Source: Halogeometricum pallidum JCM 14848 (lineage in GTDB: Archaea > Halobacteriota > Halobacteria > Halobacteriales > Haloferacaceae). From it: 64,000 bases of DNA. Below, piece by piece: positions 3,197 through 34,171 of the stretch. The position numbers were made by a program, and so were the translations under genes. Below the pieces are notes generated by a model. The model searched no databases. It saw nothing but the letters and a program-made list of their open reading frames with translations, and was not told the origin of the DNA. Positions within the stretch are counted from its first letter, which is position 1. Each line of letters begins with the position of its first letter. The stretch spans positions 1 to 64,000 of the forward strand of contig NZ_AOIV01000038.1 of the NCBI RefSeq assembly GCF_000337095.1. Reading direction: 5' to 3'.

Positions 3197-4369
3197 TCAC
3201 TCGTAGACGTGGACGCTTCCGGTGTTGTTCGCCTCGACGTAGTCCCAGTCGTAGTCGACGCCGAGTCCGGGGCCCTCGGGAACTGGCACCGTTCCCTCGT
3301 CGTCGATGGCGTCTATGTAATCGGAGTACCCGCCCTCGTACACCGGGGCGATGGGGTTCGGAAGTTCGGGGTGGACGAGTGCGAGTTCGTAGTAGTTCGC
3401 GTTGCGCGCGGCGGCCATACAGTGTCGTTGCGCCGGACCGGGGGCGTGAAACTCCACGTCGAGGCCGAATCCCTCCGCCACGCGGGCGATTTTCATCGCG
3501 CCAGTGATTCCGCCGTCGTACTCGGGGTCCGCGCGGACGAAGTCCGTCGCGCCGTTGGCGATGAAGTCCGTGTGCGGTTCGAGGCCCCTGATGTGCTCCG
3601 TCTGGAGAATCGGCGTGTCGAGCATCTCGCGGAGTTTCTTGTGACCGTGCTGTGAGATGCCGCCGTCGCGGTAGGGGTCCTCGTACCAGAAGAACCCCTC
3701 CTCGTCGCAGGCGCGACCGACCTTCACCGCATCCGCGAACGTCTCGTACTGACAGGCGGGGTCGAGCATCAGGTCCATCTCGTCGCCGACGCGCTCACCG
3801 AGGGCGTGGACCGTCTCGATTTCTCGCTCTATATCGCGCCACTCGTCGGAGCCCCAGACGTGCATCTTGAACCCCGGATAACCAGCGTCGAGACACTCCT
3901 CGGCGAAGTCGGCGTACGCCTCCGGGGAGTCCAACCCCCCGTTCTCGTCCGCTTCGTACGTCGAAGCGTAGGCGGGGAGTCGCTTACGGTAGGTTCCGAG
4001 GAGTTCGTGGATGGGCGCGCCGTAGTACTTGCCGGCGAAGTCCCACAGAGCGATGTCCATCGGCCCGATGCCCATCCGGTCGTACTTCCTGAGCGCTCGT
4101 TTCAGTTCGCTCCAGTGTCGCTCTCGTTCGAGGGGATTCTTCCCGACGAGGTAGTCCGCGACGACGTTGAACTGCGCCGCGCCCGGCGAATTCCCGCCGA
4201 TGTACTCGCCCGTGATGCCCTCGTCCGTGTGTATCTTCAGCGCGAACTGCTTTCGCTCCGTCGTCGTTCCCGGTTCGTAGACGAGACTGAAACCGTCCGG
4301 GTTGTGCCCCGTATCTTCCAGCGGAAACGAGAACTCGGTGCTCTCTATTCGCGTGATAGTCGGTACCAT
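3197..4369 (-). CDS. Enolase-superfamily (mandelate racemase/muconate lactonizing) acid-sugar dehydratase, copy 1
   Basis: A 390-residue member of the mandelate-racemase/muconate-lactonizing branch of the enolase superfamily, likely dehydrating a sugar acid to a 2-keto-3-deoxy acid. The N-terminal capping domain is followed by the barrel: DIALWDFAGK at about residue 105, GFKMHVW with the KxH base, then three metal-ligand positions in DPACQY, WYEDPYRDGG and LQTEHIRG, and a late HAPGPAQRH. Length is normal. About four residues in five match the gene at 17998, a clear duplicate. The HpcH/HpaI aldolase lies directly upstream on the same strand (67 bp), the classic partner that cleaves the keto-deoxy product. 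A TATA-like GTTTATGC lies about 28 bp before the start. Substrate not assignable by eye. Confidence 0.85.
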   Translation of the reverse strand: MVPTITRIESTEFSFPLEDTGHNPDGFSLVYEPGTTTERKQFALKIHTDEGITGEYIGGNSPGAAQFNVVADYLVGKNPLERERHWSELKRALRKYDRMGIGPMDIALWDFAGKYYGAPIHELLGTYRKRLPAYASTYEADENGGLDSPEAYADFAEECLDAGYPGFKMHVWGSDEWRDIEREIETVHALGERVGDEMDLMLDPACQYETFADAVKVGRACDEEGFFWYEDPYRDGGISQHGHKKLREMLDTPILQTEHIRGLEPHTDFIANGATDFVRADPEYDGGITGAMKIARVAEGFGLDVEFHAPGPAQRHCMAAARNANYYELALVHPELPNPIAPVYEGGYSDYIDAIDDEGTVPVPEGPGLGVDYDWDYVEANNTGSVHVYE

Positions 4370-13937: not shown

Positions 13938-13946
13938 CACTTATGA
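13938..13946 (+). promoter_or_regulatory. TATA-like box for thermosome-like gene
   Basis: ACTTATG-like sequence centred about 28 bp before ATG 13970, the usual spacing for leaderless haloarchaeal transcripts. An upstream in-frame ATG at 13943 falls inside this box, which argues that the true start is 13970. Confidence 0.5.
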
Positions 13947-13969
13947 CCCGTGAGGCGGACACCGGGAGT

Positions 13970-15526
13970 ATGAATACCGACGCCCAACGCGCGTTACTCG
14001 ACGACGTCGACCGCGTCTGCGACCTCGTCGGTACGACGCTCGGTCCGTTCGGTACGAACAAACTCGTCGTGGAGTCCGGAGGCCGCGTGACGGCGACGTC
14101 TTCCGGGACGATGCTCCTCGACCGTCTCGAACTGGACGACCCGGCGACGACGCTCCTCGAACGGGCGACGGGGGACTTCCGCGAGAGACACGGCGACGGC
14201 GCGACGACGCTCACGCTCCTGACGGGTGCGTTGCTCCGCGAGGCGGACGCGTTGTTCGAACGCGGCCTCCACCCGACGACCGTCGCCCGCGGCTACCGCG
14301 AAGCGCTCGCGGTCGCCGTCGACCGACTCGAATCCCGCGCGCGTCCGCTTTCGGTCGTCGGCCCGGACGCCGTCGCGCGGACGGCGCTCACCGGGACGCG
14401 AAACCCGATGACCAGACGGCGCGTGAGCGAGGCGATAGCGGACGCCGCCGCGACGGTGTCGGCCTCGGACGCCCCGAATGGCGGACGCGCGGATTTGGAC
14501 GTTCTCGCGCGCCTCGGCGGCGTCGGAGACACCGACCTCGTCCCCGGCGTCGTCTTGGAGACGCCGCTGGTCTCCGATGCGATGCCGCGACGCCTCCCCG
14601 ACGCGGGCGTGGCCCTCCTCTCTTCGACCGTCGACGTTCCCAAACTGGGCGGCGCCACGGAGTCGGCCGACCGGGACCTGTCGCTCGACGCGGACACGTT
14701 CGAGGAACGCGCCGCCATCGGCGAGTACGAACGCGACGAGTTCCGCCGAATTCTCTCGTCGGCCGTCGCGTCGGGGTGTCGCTTCGTCGCGACGAAGGGC
14801 GGCGTCAACGACCGGGTGAAGACGCGACTGGCCGACGCCGGGGTCGCCGCCGTCGACCGCGTCGAGGACGGGGAGATGGAGCGCCTCGTCCGGAGCACCG
14901 GCGGTCGGGTGGTTCCCTCCCTCGCCGAGGTGACGCCGGAGACGATGGGGGCGGCGGACGTTCGCGTTGAACGCCTCGCCGGTCGCGAGTTCGTCTACGT
15001 CGAGGGTGACGGCGCGCCGCAGTTCTCGCTCGTCTGCCGCGCCCCGGACCCGCGGTCGGTCGCCGCGTTCGAGGAGAGCGCGGAGAGCGCCGTCGCCGCC
15101 ACGTTCCGGGCGCTCGAAGACGGACGCGTCGTTCCGGGCGGCGGCGCGACCGAGGTGGACCTCGAACGCGCGATTCGAACGGCCGCGCGGGGGACCGCTG
15201 GCCGCGAACAACTCGCGATGGAGGGGTTCGCCAAGGCGCTCGTGACGGTCCCGAAGCGACTCGCCGAGAGCGCGGGCCTCGACGGGTGGTCCGGCGTCAT
15301 CCGCCTTCGCGTCGCGCACGACGAGGGTCGGTCCTCCGCCGGCGTCGACGCGCTAGCCGGCGAGATTCGGGACGTTCTCGAAGGCGAGGTAATCGCGGAA
15401 CCGCTCGGTCTCAAGCGCGACGCGGTGGCCTCGGCGACGGACCTCGCGACGCAGTTGCTCCGCGTCGACGAACGTGTCCCGGCGAACGACCTCTCCGACG
15501 AGGATTCGACCGCTGCGGCGAGATAG
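13970..15526 (+). CDS. Divergent thermosome/group II chaperonin-like protein A
   Basis: A 518-residue protein collinear with thermosome (Cpn60/TCP-1) subunits but much changed. It retains TLGPFGTNKLVV (residues 23-34, where thermosomes have TLGPKGMDKMLV), HGDGATTLTLLTGALL (canonical GDGTTT) and VVPGGGATEVDL. The nucleotide-site NDGAT is replaced by SSGTM (residues 44-48). The region equivalent to the hydrolytic Asp (usually ...ED-A... before VVPGGGA) reads ESAVAATFRALEDGR, apparently lacking that Asp. It may therefore bind nucleotide poorly or act as a non-cycling subunit. A second divergent copy converges on it from 15595-17280. The start is chosen from promoter spacing and from alignment to thermosome N-termini. 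Confidence 0.82.
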   Translation: MNTDAQRALLDDVDRVCDLVGTTLGPFGTNKLVVESGGRVTATSSGTMLLDRLELDDPATTLLERATGDFRERHGDGATTLTLLTGALLREADALFERGLHPTTVARGYREALAVAVDRLESRARPLSVVGPDAVARTALTGTRNPMTRRRVSEAIADAAATVSASDAPNGGRADLDVLARLGGVGDTDLVPGVVLETPLVSDAMPRRLPDAGVALLSSTVDVPKLGGATESADRDLSLDADTFEERAAIGEYERDEFRRILSSAVASGCRFVATKGGVNDRVKTRLADAGVAAVDRVEDGEMERLVRSTGGRVVPSLAEVTPETMGAADVRVERLAGREFVYVEGDGAPQFSLVCRAPDPRSVAAFEESAESAVAATFRALEDGRVVPGGGATEVDLERAIRTAARGTAGREQLAMEGFAKALVTVPKRLAESAGLDGWSGVIRLRVAHDEGRSSAGVDALAGEIRDVLEGEVIAEPLGLKRDAVASATDLATQLLRVDERVPANDLSDEDSTAAAR

Positions 15527-15594: not shown

Positions 15595-17280
15595 TTAGTC
15601 GTGTTCGGTCTGCGGAGTGAACGGACCGGGTTCGACGCCCGGAGAGACCACGGCGTCGACGGTGGCGAGTTGTTCGGCCGTCGCGACGGCGATGTCTATG
15701 GCCTGCGAGAACACGCGGCGCGGTTCGAGGACGCCCATCTCCCACGCGTCCGCGGCCTCGCCGGTGGCGACGTCCACGCCGACCGGGGCGGGCCGGTCGT
15801 CTGATTCGGCGTGCGCGTTCCGGAGCGTCGTTCGAACGTCGAGCGGGTCGTACCCGGCGTTTCGGGCGAGCGTCGTCGTCAGCGACTCGCAGGCGTCCGC
15901 GAACGCCTCCACGGCCAACTGCTCTTTGCCCTCGATACCGCGGGCGAACTCGCGGAGGTCGCGGGCGACCGCGAGCGACGGCGCACCGGCCCCCGGAAGC
16001 ACCTGTCCATCTATCGCGGCGATGGCCGTGGTTTCGACGGCGTCCTCGACCAACCGTTCGTGAGTCGTTCGTCCTTTCTCGGTCGGTGCGCCGACGAGAA
16101 GCGTGAACACCGGGCCGTCGCACTCCTCGAAGTACGCCCACTTCTCGTCGCCGACGCGCCGTTCGGATACCCGACCGGCCCGCCCCAGTTTCGACTCGTC
16201 GAGGTCCGAGACGTGGCCGACGACGCCGGCATCCGTCGCGCGGGCGACGCGGTGGATGTCCGATTTCGGGTACTGCGCTCTGTCGATGACGGCGACGCCG
16301 TGGGATTCGAGTGCGGCCTTCACCTCGTCGTCGAGTTCTGCGCGGACGACCAGAACGTCCGTACCCAGGTCGGCCACCCCCGCGGTGACCGACTCGATGG
16401 CGGCGTCTCGGGAGTCGGCGTACGCCGCGAGAGAGCCCGCAGAGTCCAGCGTCACGCCCGATTGTCCCTCTCGGCCGAAGCTCGTCGCCGACTCCTCTAC
16501 GTCGATACCGCGTTCGAGGACGGCGACCCGGGCGTCGGTGAGGACGCCCTCGACGGCGGGCGACCAGTCGAACGACAGGCGACTTCGGTCGCTCGTCTCG
16601 TGCGCGCCGGGCCGCCGACGGACGAGGTGCCCGCGCGAAAGCGTGCACTCGGCGCCGACGCGCGTTCGGACGGTGATGTCGTCCGTGTCGATCCACCCGT
16701 CGTCGCTCTCGCGGGCGAGACTCGAGACGGCCGCCGAGACGGCGTCGGCGTACTCCCGCCGCCGTCGGTCCGAGAGATCCGCCGTCATCGTCGTCGCGGC
16801 CACCTGCGAGAGCAGTTCTCTGTCCGCCGTTCCGACCGGACGCGAGAGGTCGTCTAAGACGGACCCCGCCCGGTTGGCCGCCATCGCGTAGCCGACGACG
16901 ATGCTGCCGGGGTGGAGGCCCTCGGCCGCCAGTTCCGCACCCGACTCCAGGAGTCTCGCGGCGAGGAGCGCCGCCGCCGTCGTCCCGTCGTGGAGGCTTC
17001 GCCGCATGGAGTCGAGTCCGTCGACGAACAGGGCGGCGACGGGGTGGCCGAATCCGCCGCCCCGTTCGATGGCGTCGAGGAGGTGTCCGGCGTCCCGCGT
17101 CACGACGGTCTCCGGTGCGTCCTGCGGGTCCACCGTTTCGACGAGGGTCGTTCCGCCGGTCGGACCGTACGTCGAGGCGACGAGCGATTCGACCGCACGG
17201 GCCGCTTCGACGACGTACTCTCGCGCCGCCTCGTCGCGGGTGAGCCACGCCCCCCGTTCGCTCTCGCCGTCGTGTGTCAT
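15595..17280 (-). CDS. Divergent thermosome/group II chaperonin-like protein B
   Basis: A 561-residue thermosome-like protein, highly diverged from ordinary haloarchaeal Cct subunits and also from protein A. It shows STYGPTGGTTLV (around residue 38) for the first phosphate loop, TRDAGHLL in place of NDGATIL, and LHDGTTAAALLAARLL in place of GDGTTT. VEDAVETTAIAAIDGQVLPGAGAPSL keeps the ED pair that precedes the GGGA loop. So B keeps the apparent hydrolytic Asp that A lacks, while its loops differ elsewhere. ATG 17280 is chosen because upstream residues in frame look non-coding. Its 3' end lies 68 bp from the end of gene A. Confidence 0.78.
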   Translation of the reverse strand: MTHDGESERGAWLTRDEAAREYVVEAARAVESLVASTYGPTGGTTLVETVDPQDAPETVVTRDAGHLLDAIERGGGFGHPVAALFVDGLDSMRRSLHDGTTAAALLAARLLESGAELAAEGLHPGSIVVGYAMAANRAGSVLDDLSRPVGTADRELLSQVAATTMTADLSDRRRREYADAVSAAVSSLARESDDGWIDTDDITVRTRVGAECTLSRGHLVRRRPGAHETSDRSRLSFDWSPAVEGVLTDARVAVLERGIDVEESATSFGREGQSGVTLDSAGSLAAYADSRDAAIESVTAGVADLGTDVLVVRAELDDEVKAALESHGVAVIDRAQYPKSDIHRVARATDAGVVGHVSDLDESKLGRAGRVSERRVGDEKWAYFEECDGPVFTLLVGAPTEKGRTTHERLVEDAVETTAIAAIDGQVLPGAGAPSLAVARDLREFARGIEGKEQLAVEAFADACESLTTTLARNAGYDPLDVRTTLRNAHAESDDRPAPVGVDVATGEAADAWEMGVLEPRRVFSQAIDIAVATAEQLATVDAVVSPGVEPGPFTPQTEHD

Positions 17281-17585
17281 GATTTGGCGGAACGTACCCC
17301 GGAATATAAAACTATGTGACGGCGAATCTCCGCGTCGAGGCTCAGCACCCGACGAACGAAACGTCCCAACCCCCCCGGCCGACCTGACGATTTCTGACCC
17401 AGCCACCGCGAACTGTGCGACATGAGCGCACAGTAACAAGGAAACGGACAACGGGTGTCGCTCCGTACGCGAGGCTGAACGGGCGAGACGTCACTCGCCG
17501 AATCTCCCGTCAAAGCGTCGTGGATACCCGCTCTGGACGGTTTTCAGGCAAACCAACTCGGCGGTCCTTCGGCCGTCGGAGACGT

Positions 17586-17806: not shown

Positions 17807-17963
17807 TAGAATTTCAAACTTCCCGAGTATTCCTCCGAACCCCGCGTTGTCCGACGGTTTACCGACCACGTGCGACGATGATGAACGCCCCCGTCGAAAA
17901 TCGACGGCTCGAAGTGGCCGTCCGGCATCGTTCTGGCGGCGCGTTGCTGCACGGGTTTGAACC

Positions 17964-17975
17964 GGTATTTATTAC
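17964..17975 (+). promoter_or_regulatory. TATA-like box TATTTATTA before enolase-family copy 2
   Basis: Sequence GGTATTTATTACG lies about 27 bp before ATG 17998. This is the spacing of a leaderless haloarchaeal promoter and supports the chosen start. Confidence 0.55.
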
Positions 17976-17997
17976 GATACCCCGCCTCGGGAGAGGC

Positions 17998-19173
17998 ATG
18001 ACACCGACGATTACTCGGATAGAGAGTACGGAGTTCCGGTATCCGCTCGAAGACGTGGGCACGGACGGCCACGGGTTCAACCTCGCGTACGAACCGGGGA
18101 CGACGACGGAGCGAAAACTGTTCGCGCTGAAGATACATACGGACGAGGGCATCACGGGCGAGTACATCGGCGGGAATTCGCCGGGCGCGGCGCAGATAAA
18201 CACGTTCGCGAACTACCTCGTCGGGAAGAGTCCCCTCGAACGAGAGCGACACTGGAGCGAAGTCAAGCGCGCCCTGCGAAAGTACGACCGGATGGGTATC
18301 GGCCCCATCGACATCGCTCTGTGGGACTTCGCCGGCAAGTACTACGGCGCGCCCATCCACGAACTGCTCGGAACCTACCGGACGCGCCTGCCCACCTACG
18401 CCTCGACGTACCACGCCGACGAGCACGGGGGGTTGGACTCCCCGGAGGCGTACGCCGACTTCGCAGAAGAGTGCCGAGACGCGGGCTACCCCGGGTTCAA
18501 GATTCACGGGTGGGGCGGGAGCGACGAGGCGCGAGACGTGAAACGGGAGGTGGAGACGGTACGGGCCGTCGGCGAACGCGTCGGCGACGAGATGGACCTG
18601 ATGGCCGACCCCGCCTGCGAACTGGAGACGTTCGCGGACGCGTTGAAGGTGGGCCGCGCCTGCGACGAGTACGACTTCCTCTGGTACGAAGACCCCTACC
18701 GCGACGGCGGCATCTCCCAGCACGCCCACAAGAAACTCCGCGAGATGATAGAGACGCCCCTCCTGCAGACCGAACATATCAGGGGCCTCGAACCGCACAC
18801 GGACTTCATCGCCAACGGCGCGACGGACTTCGTCCGCGCGGACCCCGAGTACGACGCGGGCATCACTGGAGCGATGAAAATCGCTCGCGTGGCGGAAGGC
18901 TTCGGCCTCGACGTGGAGTTCCACGCTCCCGGGCCGGCGCAACGACACTGTATCGCCGCCGCGCGCAACGCGAACTACTACGAACTCGCGCTCGTCCACC
19001 CGATGGCGCAGAACACGCAACCCCCGGTGTACGAGGGGGACTACTCGGACATGTTCGACACCATCGACGACGAGGGGACGGTGCCGGTACCGGACGGTCC
19101 CGGACTCGGCGTCGACTACGACTGGGATTACGTCGAGGCGAACAGCACGGGAAGCGTTCACGTCTACGAATAA
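17998..19173 (+). CDS. Enolase-superfamily acid-sugar dehydratase, copy 2
   Basis: A 391-residue paralogue of the gene at 3197-4369, in opposite orientation, with about four residues in five identical by eye. It has the same barrel motifs: DIALWDFAGK, GFKIHGWG (KxH base), DPACELETF, WYEDPYRDGG and LQTEHIRG as metal-ligand positions, and FHAPGPAQRHC. The reaction is probably dehydration of a sugar acid. ATG 17998 gives the same N-terminus as copy 1 (MTPTITRIEST versus MVPTITRIEST) and is preceded by a TATA-like box. It overlaps the next gene by one base (TAATG), so an oxidoreductase for the same compound was probably cotranslated. Confidence 0.88.
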   Translation: MTPTITRIESTEFRYPLEDVGTDGHGFNLAYEPGTTTERKLFALKIHTDEGITGEYIGGNSPGAAQINTFANYLVGKSPLERERHWSEVKRALRKYDRMGIGPIDIALWDFAGKYYGAPIHELLGTYRTRLPTYASTYHADEHGGLDSPEAYADFAEECRDAGYPGFKIHGWGGSDEARDVKREVETVRAVGERVGDEMDLMADPACELETFADALKVGRACDEYDFLWYEDPYRDGGISQHAHKKLREMIETPLLQTEHIRGLEPHTDFIANGATDFVRADPEYDAGITGAMKIARVAEGFGLDVEFHAPGPAQRHCIAAARNANYYELALVHPMAQNTQPPVYEGDYSDMFDTIDDEGTVPVPDGPGLGVDYDWDYVEANSTGSVHVYE

Positions 19174-20271
19174 TGACGTTCGAGGCGGGAATCATCGGTA
19201 CCGGCGGAATCGCGGGGATGGGCATCCTCGGAATGCACGACGAGGACCAGATAGGCCGAGAGAAGGTCAAAGCGAGTCACGCCGGCGGGTACGGCGAAAC
19301 GGAGGAGATAGAACTCGTCGCCGTCGCGGACGTCGACGAGGGGAAACTCGCGCAGTTCGGCGAGGCGTGGGACGTCCCCGAGGAACGGAGGTACGTCGGC
19401 CACGAGGCGATGCTCGCTGTCGAGGATTTGGACGTCGTCTCGGTCTGTACGCCGTCGTATCTCCACCACGACCAACGTGGTCGATGCGGTCCACTCGGAC
19501 GCGAATCCCGACGTAATCTGGTGCGAGAAACCCATCGCTTCGTCCGTCTCGGAGGCCGAAGAGATGGTGGCGGCCTGCGCGGAGGCGGACGCCGAACTCG
19601 TCGTCAACCCCTCGTTTCGCTTCACCGACAAACTCCGCCGCCTCCGCGAACTCGTGGTCGAAGAGGACATCCTCGGCGACGTTCGCTCCGTGAGCACGCA
19701 GTTCCGCATGGAACTGATGCGGAACTCGACGCACCTCCTCGATACGCTGGTCTACCTCCTCGACGCGCGGGCGGACCGAGTGTCGGGGTACATCACCGGC
19801 GAGAACGAGGCGGTCGATTCGCTCGGCGCCGCGGCCGAGGTGGACGACTCCGGCGGCGGCGGCCACGTCGTCATGGACGACGGGACGTTCGTCACCGTCG
19901 ACTGCACCGTCCCCCGAGGCATCTCTTCGATGAGTCTCACCTTCGTCGGCACGGCGGGGAAACTCTACATGAACAACGACGACGGCGAGTGGCGCTACTG
20001 GTCCTTGGAGGACGGCGACCACGTCGAGACGCCGTTACCGGATATCGAGGGCGCGTGGACGTGGGACGAGGACTACCGGACCGCTTTCCCGAACGCCGCG
20101 CGGCGCATCGAATCGATGCTCCGCGGGGACGCGGAAAACCCCTCGACGGGCGAGGAGGCGACTCGCTCGCTCGAAATCATCGTCGCGTTCTACATCTCTC
20201 ACTACACCGGCGGACACGTGGACATCCCGCTCGAGAGACCGTTGCGCGACGTCGAGATAACGTCCTGGTGA
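19173..20271 (+). pseudogene. Gfo/Idh/MocA oxidoreductase interrupted by a one-base frameshift
   Basis: NAD(P)-dependent sugar oxidoreductase family. The N-terminal Rossmann part begins at ATG 19173 (MTFEAGIIGTGGIAG) and runs through VADVDEGKLAQF to CTPSYLHHD. There the frame breaks. Skipping one C at about 19473 restores NVVDAVHSD and then WCEKPIA, the family EKP motif, and continues to the stop at 20271. Both parts are otherwise intact and the joined protein would be about 366 residues, the normal family length. Either the gene was recently inactivated or the base is a sequencing error. Downstream translation could restart at GTG 19477, but that product would lack the NAD-binding half. The gene overlaps the dehydratase by one base. 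Confidence 0.85.
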
Positions 20272-20540
20272 GGCGGAGAGCGGTGGAGCGAAAGCGGGCG
20301 GTCAGCGGACGGCGAACGCCCGAATGCTGACTCACCCGTGCCGTGGACGGAGATAATCCGTGGTCCGTTCGGACTCGGGTGGACAGTCCCGCCCGAGCGT
20401 CTGAGTCGGGTCCCAATCGGTTGTACCATCTTTCTCGCCCTCCTCCCTAATCTGCTGGTGACCCTCCGTCTCGGGAGGAAGTTCGGCGCGCGGCGGTTCC
20501 AGCGAAAAGACTAACAGGATACTCTCCGACCATTGTTCTC

Positions 20541-21728
20541 ATGGGACAGTCATTTAGCGGGTACCGCAGGCCGGACGGCCGGGTGGGCGTCCGCAACCAC
20601 GTCGCCGTCGTCCCCACGTCAGTCGCCGCCGCGGCCGTCTCGTCCGCAGTCGCCGACGACGCAGGAGCGTGGGCGCGGGCGACACCGCACCAACTCGGAA
20701 CCAGCCAACCGGACGCTGCGAGGCGGCAAACCGAACGAGTGTTGGCCGGCGTCGGGCGAAACCCGAACGTCGGCGCGGCACTCGTCGTGGAACTCGGAAC
20801 CGAAGACATAACGGCCGACGCCGTCGCGGACCGAATCGCGGCCGGCGGAACCGCGACGGAGACGCTCACTATCCGCGAAGCGGGCGGGACGGCGGCCGCC
20901 CTCTCGGAGGGGGCGGACCGCCTCGACCGTCTGAACGAGGAGGCCCAACGCGCCAGACGCGAGGAGGCCGACGTTTCCGAACTCGTCTTCGGCGTCGAGT
21001 GCGGCGGCAGCGACGCCACCAGCGGAATCGCGGCTAACCCGGCGGTCGGCGCGGCCTGCGACCGACTCGTGGAGGCGGGGGGAACCGCTTGCTTCAGCGA
21101 GACGCCGGAGTTCATCGGCGCGGAGCACATCCTCGCCGACCGGTGCGTCGACGACGAGACGCGGGACAAACTGCTCGAACGCGTGGACGCCCGCGAGGGG
21201 ATGGCCGAACTGATGGGCGTCGACCTCCGCGGCGCACAACCCACGCCCGGCAACCAGGAGGGCGGCCTCACCACCATCGAGGAGAAGAGCCTCGGAGCCA
21301 TCTCGAAGGGCGGGACGACGCCCGTCCGCGGTATCGCCGATTACGCCGAGGACCTGCCGGTCGGCGGCGGACTCACCCTGATGGACACGCCGGGGTACGA
21401 CGTAGAGAGCGTCGTCGGCAAGGTGTCCGGCGGCGCGCAGGTAATCGCTTTCACCACCGGTCGCGGCAGCACGACGGGCAACCCCATCGCGCCGGTCATC
21501 AAGGTGACCGGCAACCCGAAGACGTGGGAGAAGATGTCGAACAACATCGACGTCAACGCCGGGACGGTGTTCGACGGCGAGTCTATCGACTCCGTCGGCG
21601 AACGCGTCTTCGAGACGTTACTCGAGGTGGCGGACGGTCGGCAGACCGAATCCGAGCACCGGCGGCTGGAGGAGTTCGCCATCAACGAGATTCAACCCGA
21701 GGAGCTCGAAGCGGAGGCGGGAGCATGA
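20541..21728 (+). CDS. UxaA/GarD-type dehydratase large subunit, paralogue 1
   Basis: A 395-residue UxaA-family protein (altronate/galactarate dehydratase, sulfolactate lyase SuyB type). It retains VECGGSDATSGIAANPAVG (about residues 153-171), PTPGNQEGGLTTIEEKSLGAISKGG and the TTGRGSTTGNPIAPVIKVTGN C-terminal motif. The N-terminal His/Cys elements seen in other family members are absent: the position of LGCE reads LGTE, and no H-x-x-GC is visible. It overlaps the SAF-domain gene by 4 bp (ATGA). The expected reaction is elimination of water or another group from a hydroxy-acid. It is regulated perhaps by the convergent IclR gene. Confidence 0.88.
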   Translation: MGQSFSGYRRPDGRVGVRNHVAVVPTSVAAAAVSSAVADDAGAWARATPHQLGTSQPDAARRQTERVLAGVGRNPNVGAALVVELGTEDITADAVADRIAAGGTATETLTIREAGGTAAALSEGADRLDRLNEEAQRARREEADVSELVFGVECGGSDATSGIAANPAVGAACDRLVEAGGTACFSETPEFIGAEHILADRCVDDETRDKLLERVDAREGMAELMGVDLRGAQPTPGNQEGGLTTIEEKSLGAISKGGTTPVRGIADYAEDLPVGGGLTLMDTPGYDVESVVGKVSGGAQVIAFTTGRGSTTGNPIAPVIKVTGNPKTWEKMSNNIDVNAGTVFDGESIDSVGERVFETLLEVADGRQTESEHRRLEEFAINEIQPEELEAEAGA

Positions 21729-22039
21729 AGGGTCGCGTCCTCGACGACGCCCTCCTCCTCCTGAGCGAGTCGGACAACGTCGGAACGACCGTCGACGACC
21801 TCGGGTCGGGGACCGAAGTCGACTTCGACGGCCGGACCGTCGTCCTCTCCGAGAACGTTCCGTTCGGTCACAAAGTGGCGGTCGAGTCGTTCTCCGCCGG
21901 CGACGAGGTTCGGAAGTACGGCGAGGTCATCGGAACCGCGACGCAGGCGATAGCGGCCGGCGAATGGGTCCACACGCACAACTGCGAGAGCACTCGCGGC
22001 CGCGGCGACCGCGCGGCCGCCGGAGGTGAGACGGCGTGA
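21725..22039 (+). CDS. UxaA small subunit (SAF domain)
   Basis: A 104-residue SAF-domain protein, the separate small subunit of UxaA/SuyAB-type dehydratases. VVLSENVPFGHKVAVESFSAGDEVRKYGEVIGTATQAIAAGEWVHTHNCES contains the typical lysine-containing turn (PFGHKVA) and the terminal GEWVHTHN motif. In larger family members this domain is fused to the large subunit. It overlaps the gene before by ATGA and the gene after by GTGA, so the three are translationally coupled. Confidence 0.9.
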   Translation: MKGRVLDDALLLLSESDNVGTTVDDLGSGTEVDFDGRTVVLSENVPFGHKVAVESFSAGDEVRKYGEVIGTATQAIAAGEWVHTHNCESTRGRGDRAAAGGETA

Positions 22040-23148
22040 GCGTCCCGTCCGTCACCGGCCGGACGTTCGAGGGCGTCTCCCGAGACGACGGGAGCATCGG
22101 CGTCCGCGACAACGTCCTCGTCCTCCCCTCAGTTATCTGCTCGCACATCGTCGCCGACCGCATCGCGACGCGCGTCGACAACGCCGTCTCGGCGCCGCAC
22201 GACCACGGCTGCGCGCAACTCGGCGCCGACAACGAACAGACGCGGCGGACGTTCCTCTCCTTGGCGCAGAACCCGAACATCGCGGGCACCGTCGTCGTCG
22301 GACTCGGCTGCGAGGAGATCCAGAGCGCCGACGTGGCGGGCGAACTCGAATCGCGGAACGTCCCCGTGAGAGAGCTATCGATACAGGGCGTCGGGGGGAC
22401 CGACGAGTGCGTAGAACGGGGCGTCGACGCGGCGTCGGACCTCGTCTCCTCGCGTCGGACGGACCGGTCGGACGCCACCATCGGCGACCTGACGCTCGGC
22501 ATCGTGTCTAGCGACCTCGACGCCTCCACGGTGGACGTCGCGGACCCCCTCGTCGGCCACGTGGCGCGCGCCGTCGTCGCCGCCGGTGGCCGCGTCGTCG
22601 TCGCCGGGAACGAACGCGTCGTTGCCCACTCCGAGGCGGTTCGCGAAACGACCGACGAAACCGCCCGGGACTCGTTGGACGACTTGGTTGCTCGGCACGA
22701 CGGCCACCCGCCGCGGGCCACGCGGGTCGGCCGATTCGCCCGCAAGCGCTCGTTCGAGGAGGTGACGCGCTCGTGGGGGACCCGCGACGTGTCGGAAGTG
22801 CTCGCGTACGGCGAACGGGCCAGCGTCTCGGAGGGCCTCGCTCTCGTCGACGCGCCGTCGCGGTTCGGCGAAGCGACGACGGCGCTCGCCGCCGCGGGCG
22901 CGAACGTCGTCGTCCACGTCACCGGCGACGGCATCCTCGCCGGACACCCCCTCGTCCCGGTCGTGAAAGTGACCGGCGATCCCGGGACGGCGGCGGCGCT
23001 CCCGGACGACATCGACGTGGAGGCGGCGAACGCGGACGCCGACGACTTACTGGAGACGCTGGTCGCCGTGGCGAACGGCGAGCGGTGTCGCGCGGAAGAA
23101 CACGGCCTCACGGAGTTCGCCATCACGCGCGTCGGGCCGTCGATGTGA
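22036..23148 (+). CDS. UxaA/GarD-type dehydratase large subunit, paralogue 2
   Basis: A 370-residue UxaA-like protein with GTG start, coupled to the SAF gene. It keeps N-terminal APHDHGCAQLG and GLGCEEIQ, the His/Cys elements missing from paralogue 1. It has lost the CGGSD signature (the region reads GIVSSDLDAS) and the TTGRG motif (VTGDGILAGHPLVPVVKV). The two large subunits thus have complementary motif losses, which suggests an obligate heteromer or a specialised non-catalytic partner. The frame is intact and ends just before the convergent IclR gene. Confidence 0.85.
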   Translation: MSVPSVTGRTFEGVSRDDGSIGVRDNVLVLPSVICSHIVADRIATRVDNAVSAPHDHGCAQLGADNEQTRRTFLSLAQNPNIAGTVVVGLGCEEIQSADVAGELESRNVPVRELSIQGVGGTDECVERGVDAASDLVSSRRTDRSDATIGDLTLGIVSSDLDASTVDVADPLVGHVARAVVAAGGRVVVAGNERVVAHSEAVRETTDETARDSLDDLVARHDGHPPRATRVGRFARKRSFEEVTRSWGTRDVSEVLAYGERASVSEGLALVDAPSRFGEATTALAAAGANVVVHVTGDGILAGHPLVPVVKVTGDPGTAAALPDDIDVEAANADADDLLETLVAVANGERCRAEEHGLTEFAITRVGPSM

Positions 23149-33776: not shown

Positions 33777-34171
33777 GGACTCTTCTCCGTCGCATCCGAA
33801 CGGACGGGGACGACACCGTCGGCGGCGAGGTCGTTCCAGATATCGAGCCGCTGTATCTCTCCGTCCCGAATCTCGTACACGTCCGCGTACCGGACGCCCG
33901 AAAATTCCTCGCCGTCGTTGTCGACGCCGTACAGCGTTCCGAGACTGACGACGTGCGGCCCCGCCTCTATCCAGCGGTCGAACTTCTTTGCCGCCCGCGC
34001 GTACCGGGGTGCGAGGAACGACAGGAACTCCGACGGCGCGTCCGGCCCTTCGAACCTCCCACCGGGAACCGTGATCACCGCATCCTCGGCGAACAGTTCG
34101 CCGACCGTCTCCCGGCGGTCGTCCGCCATCCGCTCGAAGAACTCCTCGACTACCGCTCTCGGCGTGCGCAT
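33773..34171 (-). CDS. NTF2-like/SnoaL-like small protein
   Basis: A 132-residue cone-fold protein: RAVVEEFFERMADDRRETVGELFAEDAVITVPG is the standard NTF2-like start. GVDNDGEEFSGVRYADVYEIRDGEIQRLDIWND gives the closing beta strands. Such proteins act as isomerases, cyclases, dehydratases or accessory binders and their substrate cannot be guessed from sequence. It is the first gene of the eight-gene minus-strand operon and overlaps the LLM gene by 4 bp. A TATA-like AGTATATGTG lies about 30 bp upstream. Confidence 0.85.
   Translation of the reverse strand: MRTPRAVVEEFFERMADDRRETVGELFAEDAVITVPGGRFEGPDAPSEFLSFLAPRYARAAKKFDRWIEAGPHVVSLGTLYGVDNDGEEFSGVRYADVYEIRDGEIQRLDIWNDLAADGVVPVRSDATEKSP

Follow-up and report, generated by a model that had tools for sequence, protein, structure and literature searches.

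A one-base frameshift at the centre of a palindrome in a Gfo/Idh/MocA gene of Halogeometricum pallidum: recent mutation or assembly error?

Introduction

Gfo/Idh/MocA oxidoreductases are usually NAD(P)-dependent dehydrogenases of sugars. One gene of this family, at positions 19173–20271 (+ strand) of a 64,000-nucleotide stretch of Halogeometricum pallidum JCM 14848 DNA (hereafter the window), changes reading frame after about a quarter of its length. Has the organism lost this enzyme by mutation, is the gene intact and the assembly wrong, or is the protein still made from two frames? An earlier note, written from the sequence alone, had offered "a recent event or a sequencing error", and our analysis ends with this same pair of explanations as the right one.

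Results and Discussion

The Gfo/Idh/MocA gene of the window is split over two frames

The sequence does contain the frameshift: the gene is read for 100 codons in one frame and then continues one base on. Frame 0, starting at the ATG at 19173, reads ...VSVCTPSYLHHD (CTPSYLHHD) and is Arg-rich thereafter; the frame one base on reads ...VVDAVHSDANPDVIWCEKPIA, contains WCEKP (residues 116–120) and ends at the stop at 20269–20271. Both frames are as the earlier note had described them, and the homologous protein resumes one base out of frame beyond 19472. The N-terminal part (19173–19472, + strand, codons 1–100, frame 0) encodes most of the Rossmann domain, as supported by PF01408 and by homology in the 69 loci that hold this part. 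The remainder (19477–20271, + strand, codons 102–365 and the stop), supported by PF02894 and by homology to 70 loci, carries WCEKP together with the remaining Rossmann sequence and the C-terminal domain. PF01408 (N-terminal NAD-binding Rossmann) scored 37.2 bits on 19173–19487 against a cut-off of 24, PF02894 (C-terminal domain) 23.1 bits on 19474–20271, just above its cut-off of 22.9, and PF22725 23.2 bits, under its cut-off of 27. With the C-terminal piece alone as query, the model of the haloarchaeal D-xylose dehydrogenase Gfo6 (NF041392) gave 48.6 bits against a cut-off of 350. The EKP within WCEKP, which stands in the shifted frame, is the catalytic motif of the family.

Since frame 0 meets no stop until 20328, unshifted translation would give a product of 385 residues (19173–20330, + strand, from the stop positions and the ORF list) without early termination, in which 100 native residues are followed by 285 Arg-rich, out-of-frame ones. 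Frame 1 is open from 19312 and frame 0 to 20328, which leaves a stop-free overlap of about 1 kb.

A codon-usage segmentation of the 64-kb window, trained on five window genes and made without homologues, placed a change of frame between 19457 and 19458, some 16 bp away from the indel. It flagged 20 direct same-strand frame switches, a count that excludes those bridged by a stretch called non-coding; matched by eye to ORF stops, 19 lie within 25 bp of one and only the switch in the Gfo/Idh/MocA gene does not. The idea of a window rich in indels was thus rejected. An apparent frame switch at 33786 proved to be a gene boundary.

Homologues cross the break in a single frame

The comparison covered 70 homologous loci. 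A search with the C-terminal piece as sole query supplied 59 of them, all in named haloarchaeal genomes, and the other 11 were taken by place from relatives and from the own genome. They are 66 distinct sequences in DNA, four being genes taken twice. The gene is nearly whole in 69 of them (L069 begins at residue 97), and all 70 (66 distinct) cross the break in one frame. Inspection of this site in relatives, which the earlier note had suggested, thus found every locus unshifted, with His101 in 69/70.

A protein search of 170 family genomes (E 1e-60) gave matches in 31, many of them genes already among the 70 loci. All 39 other copies are in one piece without stops and only the window copy is in two, at a threshold below which a strongly broken, divergent copy could drop; 38 of the 39 span residues 1–3 to 365 and one spans 2–354. 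Among four same-genus genomes, a homologue was found in one and, at E 1e-60, in none of the other three. The nearest relative (genome G011, contig C5) is 90% identical in DNA and shares the upstream gene order. Its intact Gfo/Idh/MocA gene, like that of Haloferax denitrificans (L050, 83% protein identity), has an enolase gene a few bases upstream, as in the window. Both intact genes form one continuous frame with His at 101 and 146, whereas the window gene is split and has Pro146. The single continuous frame of a functional Gfo/Idh/MocA gene is absent in the window copy.

The own genome holds an intact paralogue on contig C11 (72% protein identity). PF01408 matched there in 27 rows at 26 loci, and only the window gene took two rows. 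Two further loci, C40:1625-1846 (model positions 45–118) and C39:8654-8767 (78–115), match PF01408 partially, inside long open frames.

Recoding and a working split are both very unlikely

Programmed or compensatory +1 ribosomal frameshifting could join both frames into a full-length enzyme. The stop-free overlap would not block such a shift, dN/dS stays low both before and after the break (see below), and a +1 event is apparently present in a haloarchaeal virus, as described in PMC8211752. However, the break is common to none of the 70 homologous loci and none of the 39 family-genome copies (partly the same genes), and the shift site (GAC CAA C) has neither a homopolymer nor a frame-0 stop. 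Reasoned by hand, a P-site tRNA for GAC would be unable to re-pair on ACC. A stimulatory RNA structure was sought in 19477–19560 and none was stable: on average the shuffled versions of this segment fold better (z +1.33), and 184 of 200 equal or surpass it. We regard frameshifting of this kind as very improbable, and consider it just as hard to believe that a full-length enzyme still arises by a +1 shift or by slippage at the hairpin at 19469–19483. Were it so, a metabolic gene of a haloarchaeon would be recoded by a +1 shift. The earlier remark that programmed frameshifting could not be excluded has therefore lost most of its force, because the break recurs in no homologue seen and nothing recognisable as a shift site is present.

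A close parallel is the alpha-fucosidase gene fucA1 of Saccharolobus. It too is an archaeal gene of sugar metabolism divided between two frames, and PMC8211752 describes for it −1 programmed frameshifting with a slippery heptamer, rare codons and a putative stem-loop. According to that account the fucA1 break is common to two strains, whereas the break in the window is unshared and its shift is +1. Compared with the elements reported there, the window gene has no slippery site and no stable downstream structure.

Two separate functional proteins can also be imagined, the C-terminal part being made from the GTG at 19477 or another internal start and working alone. An ORF from this GTG to 20271 does exist (264 codons), but the piece would be without most of the NAD-binding domain, and a two-protein split was found in no relative compared (70 loci; 39 family-genome copies). 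We give this arrangement almost no credence.

The surplus base is probably an A

Residue 101 is His in 69 of the 70 homologous loci and Pro in one; the codon is CAC in 65, CAT in four and CCG in one. At the break the window reads GAC CAAC GTG GTC and its nearest relative (L039) GAC CAC GTG GTG. By parsimony, the surplus base is probably one A of the pair at 19474–19475 (+ strand), which turns CAC into CAAC: with His in 69/70 loci, one extra A explains the site in a single step. The earlier note had instead proposed a surplus C near 19473. This is probably wrong and was ruled out as a candidate, since its removal leaves Asn at a residue that is His in 69/70 loci, so that a further change would be needed.

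The insertion lies at the centre of a palindrome

A palindrome scan revealed a quasi-palindrome, CGACCA-ACG-TGGTCG, with 6-bp arms and a 3-base loop at 19469–19483 (+ strand). One A shorter, it is a perfect 14-bp palindrome, CGACCACGTGGTCG, with the insertion at its centre. The earlier statement that no slippery homopolymer is present was borne out; the quasi-palindrome found there instead had escaped that reading, as had Pro146 (see below). At the homologous site of the 66 distinct relatives the arms measure 0–5 bp, so the palindrome of the window is the longest. The window has eight more perfect palindromes that are 14 bp or longer. By a test devised after sight of the site, centres of perfect palindromes of this length make up 0.028% of window positions (surplus A left out), and centres of inverted repeats whose arms are at least 6 and whose loop is at most 3 make up 0.76%. 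Exact copies of CGACCACGTGGTCG occur at three genome sites, all on contig C27 (37803, 39294 and 140762), two of them 1.5 kb apart.

Quasi-palindromes are described as mutation hotspots (PMC7202029), and their mutations as typically lengthening the match of the arms (PMC3820800); the insertion in the window instead spoils a perfect palindrome. Illumina indel errors, for their part, are reported to be commoner around inverted repeats (PMC4719071), although this may not be the platform of the present assembly. The palindrome fits a hairpin-linked mutation and a sequencing error alike: it gives a reason for the site and does not tell which of the two occurred there.

The gene still evolves as coding sequence

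Relative to G011, dN/dS of the Gfo/Idh/MocA gene is 0.17 (0.20 before the break and 0.15 after); the enolase gene and the chaperonin-like neighbour gave 0.064 and 0.113, respectively. The low ratio on both sides of the break gives no sign of long decay, and the gene still evolves as coding sequence. When changes were polarised with four outgroup sequences, which leaves 42 changes unpolarised, N:S was 18:18 on the window branch and 11:21 on the G011 branch, a difference that is not significant (p ~0.095). With single outgroups, the figures for the window and G011 were 21:18 vs 15:29 (L041), 20:27 vs 13:25 (L050) and 19:23 vs 15:28 (L053); since they differ, the amino-acid excess depends on the outgroup, and with L050 alone it becomes smaller.

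Codon 146 (19609–19611, + strand) is CCC (Pro), whereas each of the 65 further homologues in the comparison has His. Replacing His by Pro is a drastic change, and Pro146 is the one residue of the window copy that is seen in no other homologue. By number it is not unusual, because 21 of 66 sequences, the window included, depart at least once at an otherwise invariant site. The earlier claim that everything else in the gene is intact therefore stands for the reading frame and fails at residue 146. Together with the amino-acid excess, Pro146 gives a weak hint of recent relaxation or inactivation in a gene that shows no long decay.

Codons 101–115 (about 19473–19518) differ from G011 at 14 of 45 bases, compared with 10% overall (shuffle P 0.028). 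A locally imported patch was considered and rejected, as no homologue matches the stretch better than 0.78. In seven other pairs it is more divergent than the rest of the gene in four, similarly divergent in two and better conserved in one; identities are, for instance, 0.69 vs 0.81 in L039/L041 and 0.78 vs 0.87 in L060/L063. From these alignments we take codons 101–115 as a naturally variable stretch.

Recent mutation is somewhat favoured over assembly error

It is possible, and a reading to be taken seriously, that the gene of the organism is intact and that the draft assembly has one surplus A at the hairpin. The break is known from a single draft assembly of 45 contigs, in which one read or assembly error would look identical, and outside the break the gene still evolves like a coding sequence. 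The site is moreover an inverted repeat, the context linked to Illumina indel errors in PMC4719071 (again, the platform of the assembly may differ), and in Mycobacterium smegmatis 28 of 73 investigated interrupted genes are given as sequencing errors (PMC1852416). Against an error, the site has no homopolymer, all other direct same-strand frame switches of the window lie at ORF stops, and none of the other PF01408 loci of the genome (26 with that of the window) is in two rows, the loci on C40 and C39 matching the model only in part. Pro146 and the slight amino-acid excess also lean, weakly, towards relaxed selection.

On balance a true mutation is somewhat more probable than an error of assembly. 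We consider the break to be, with fair probability, an ordinary one-base frameshift of recent origin. The gene of a haloarchaeal NAD(P)-dependent sugar or sugar-acid dehydrogenase would have gained one A at codon 101, at the tip of the 14-bp palindrome, where a hairpin could cause the polymerase to slip by one base. As found, it would encode a chimera that, having lost the frame before the catalytic EKP motif, should be inactive. The loss may be tolerable because a related intact gene lies elsewhere in the genome, a paralogue that could compensate for it. The interrupted coding sequences described for M. smegmatis (PMC1852416) likewise show a single-base indel in an otherwise well-conserved gene; compared with those reported there, the indel of the window lies at the centre of a palindrome and is known from one draft assembly. 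If it is a true mutation, the locus is a modest case of gene inactivation by a single base inserted at the centre of a palindrome, in a genome that retains a paralogue. The window copy is best not annotated as an active dehydrogenase of the cluster before a check of the reads.

The gene lies next to an enolase-superfamily gene

Upstream lies an enolase-superfamily gene of the mandelate racemase/sugar-acid dehydratase type (17998–19173, + strand; PF13378 and PF02746 on the longer ORF 17878–19173). Its TAA stop (19171–19173) overlaps the ATG of the Gfo/Idh/MocA gene (19173) by one base, and in 24 of the 70 homologous loci an enolase-superfamily homologue ends at most 200 bp upstream of the Gfo homologue. 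The best solved relatives of the enolase-superfamily gene are chains named isomerase/lactonizing enzyme (1rvk, 4hcd, 4mmw). In the excerpts of the Haloferax literature on enzyme function that were consulted, nothing was recognised as such an enolase-superfamily/Gfo gene pair. The Gfo/Idh/MocA gene may take part in the breakdown of sugar acids.

Three UxaA-type galactarate/altronate dehydratase pieces (395, 104 and 370 residues) follow in a row at 20541–23148 (+ strand); in G011, the stretch matching 20502–23148 sits about 26 kb further on. The window has two enolase-superfamily genes in opposite orientation, at 3197–4369 (−) and 17998–19173 (+), and the 70 bases at 3201–3270 are 94% identical to 19100–19169, near the 3' end of the latter gene. 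In G011, too, the contig carries a second enolase-superfamily copy, in inverted orientation. Two convergent thermosome-like chaperonin genes, at 13943–15526 (+) and 15595–17451 (−), stand beside the sugar cluster, and both score about 301–312 bits against three archaeal thermosome models, under the curated cut-offs.
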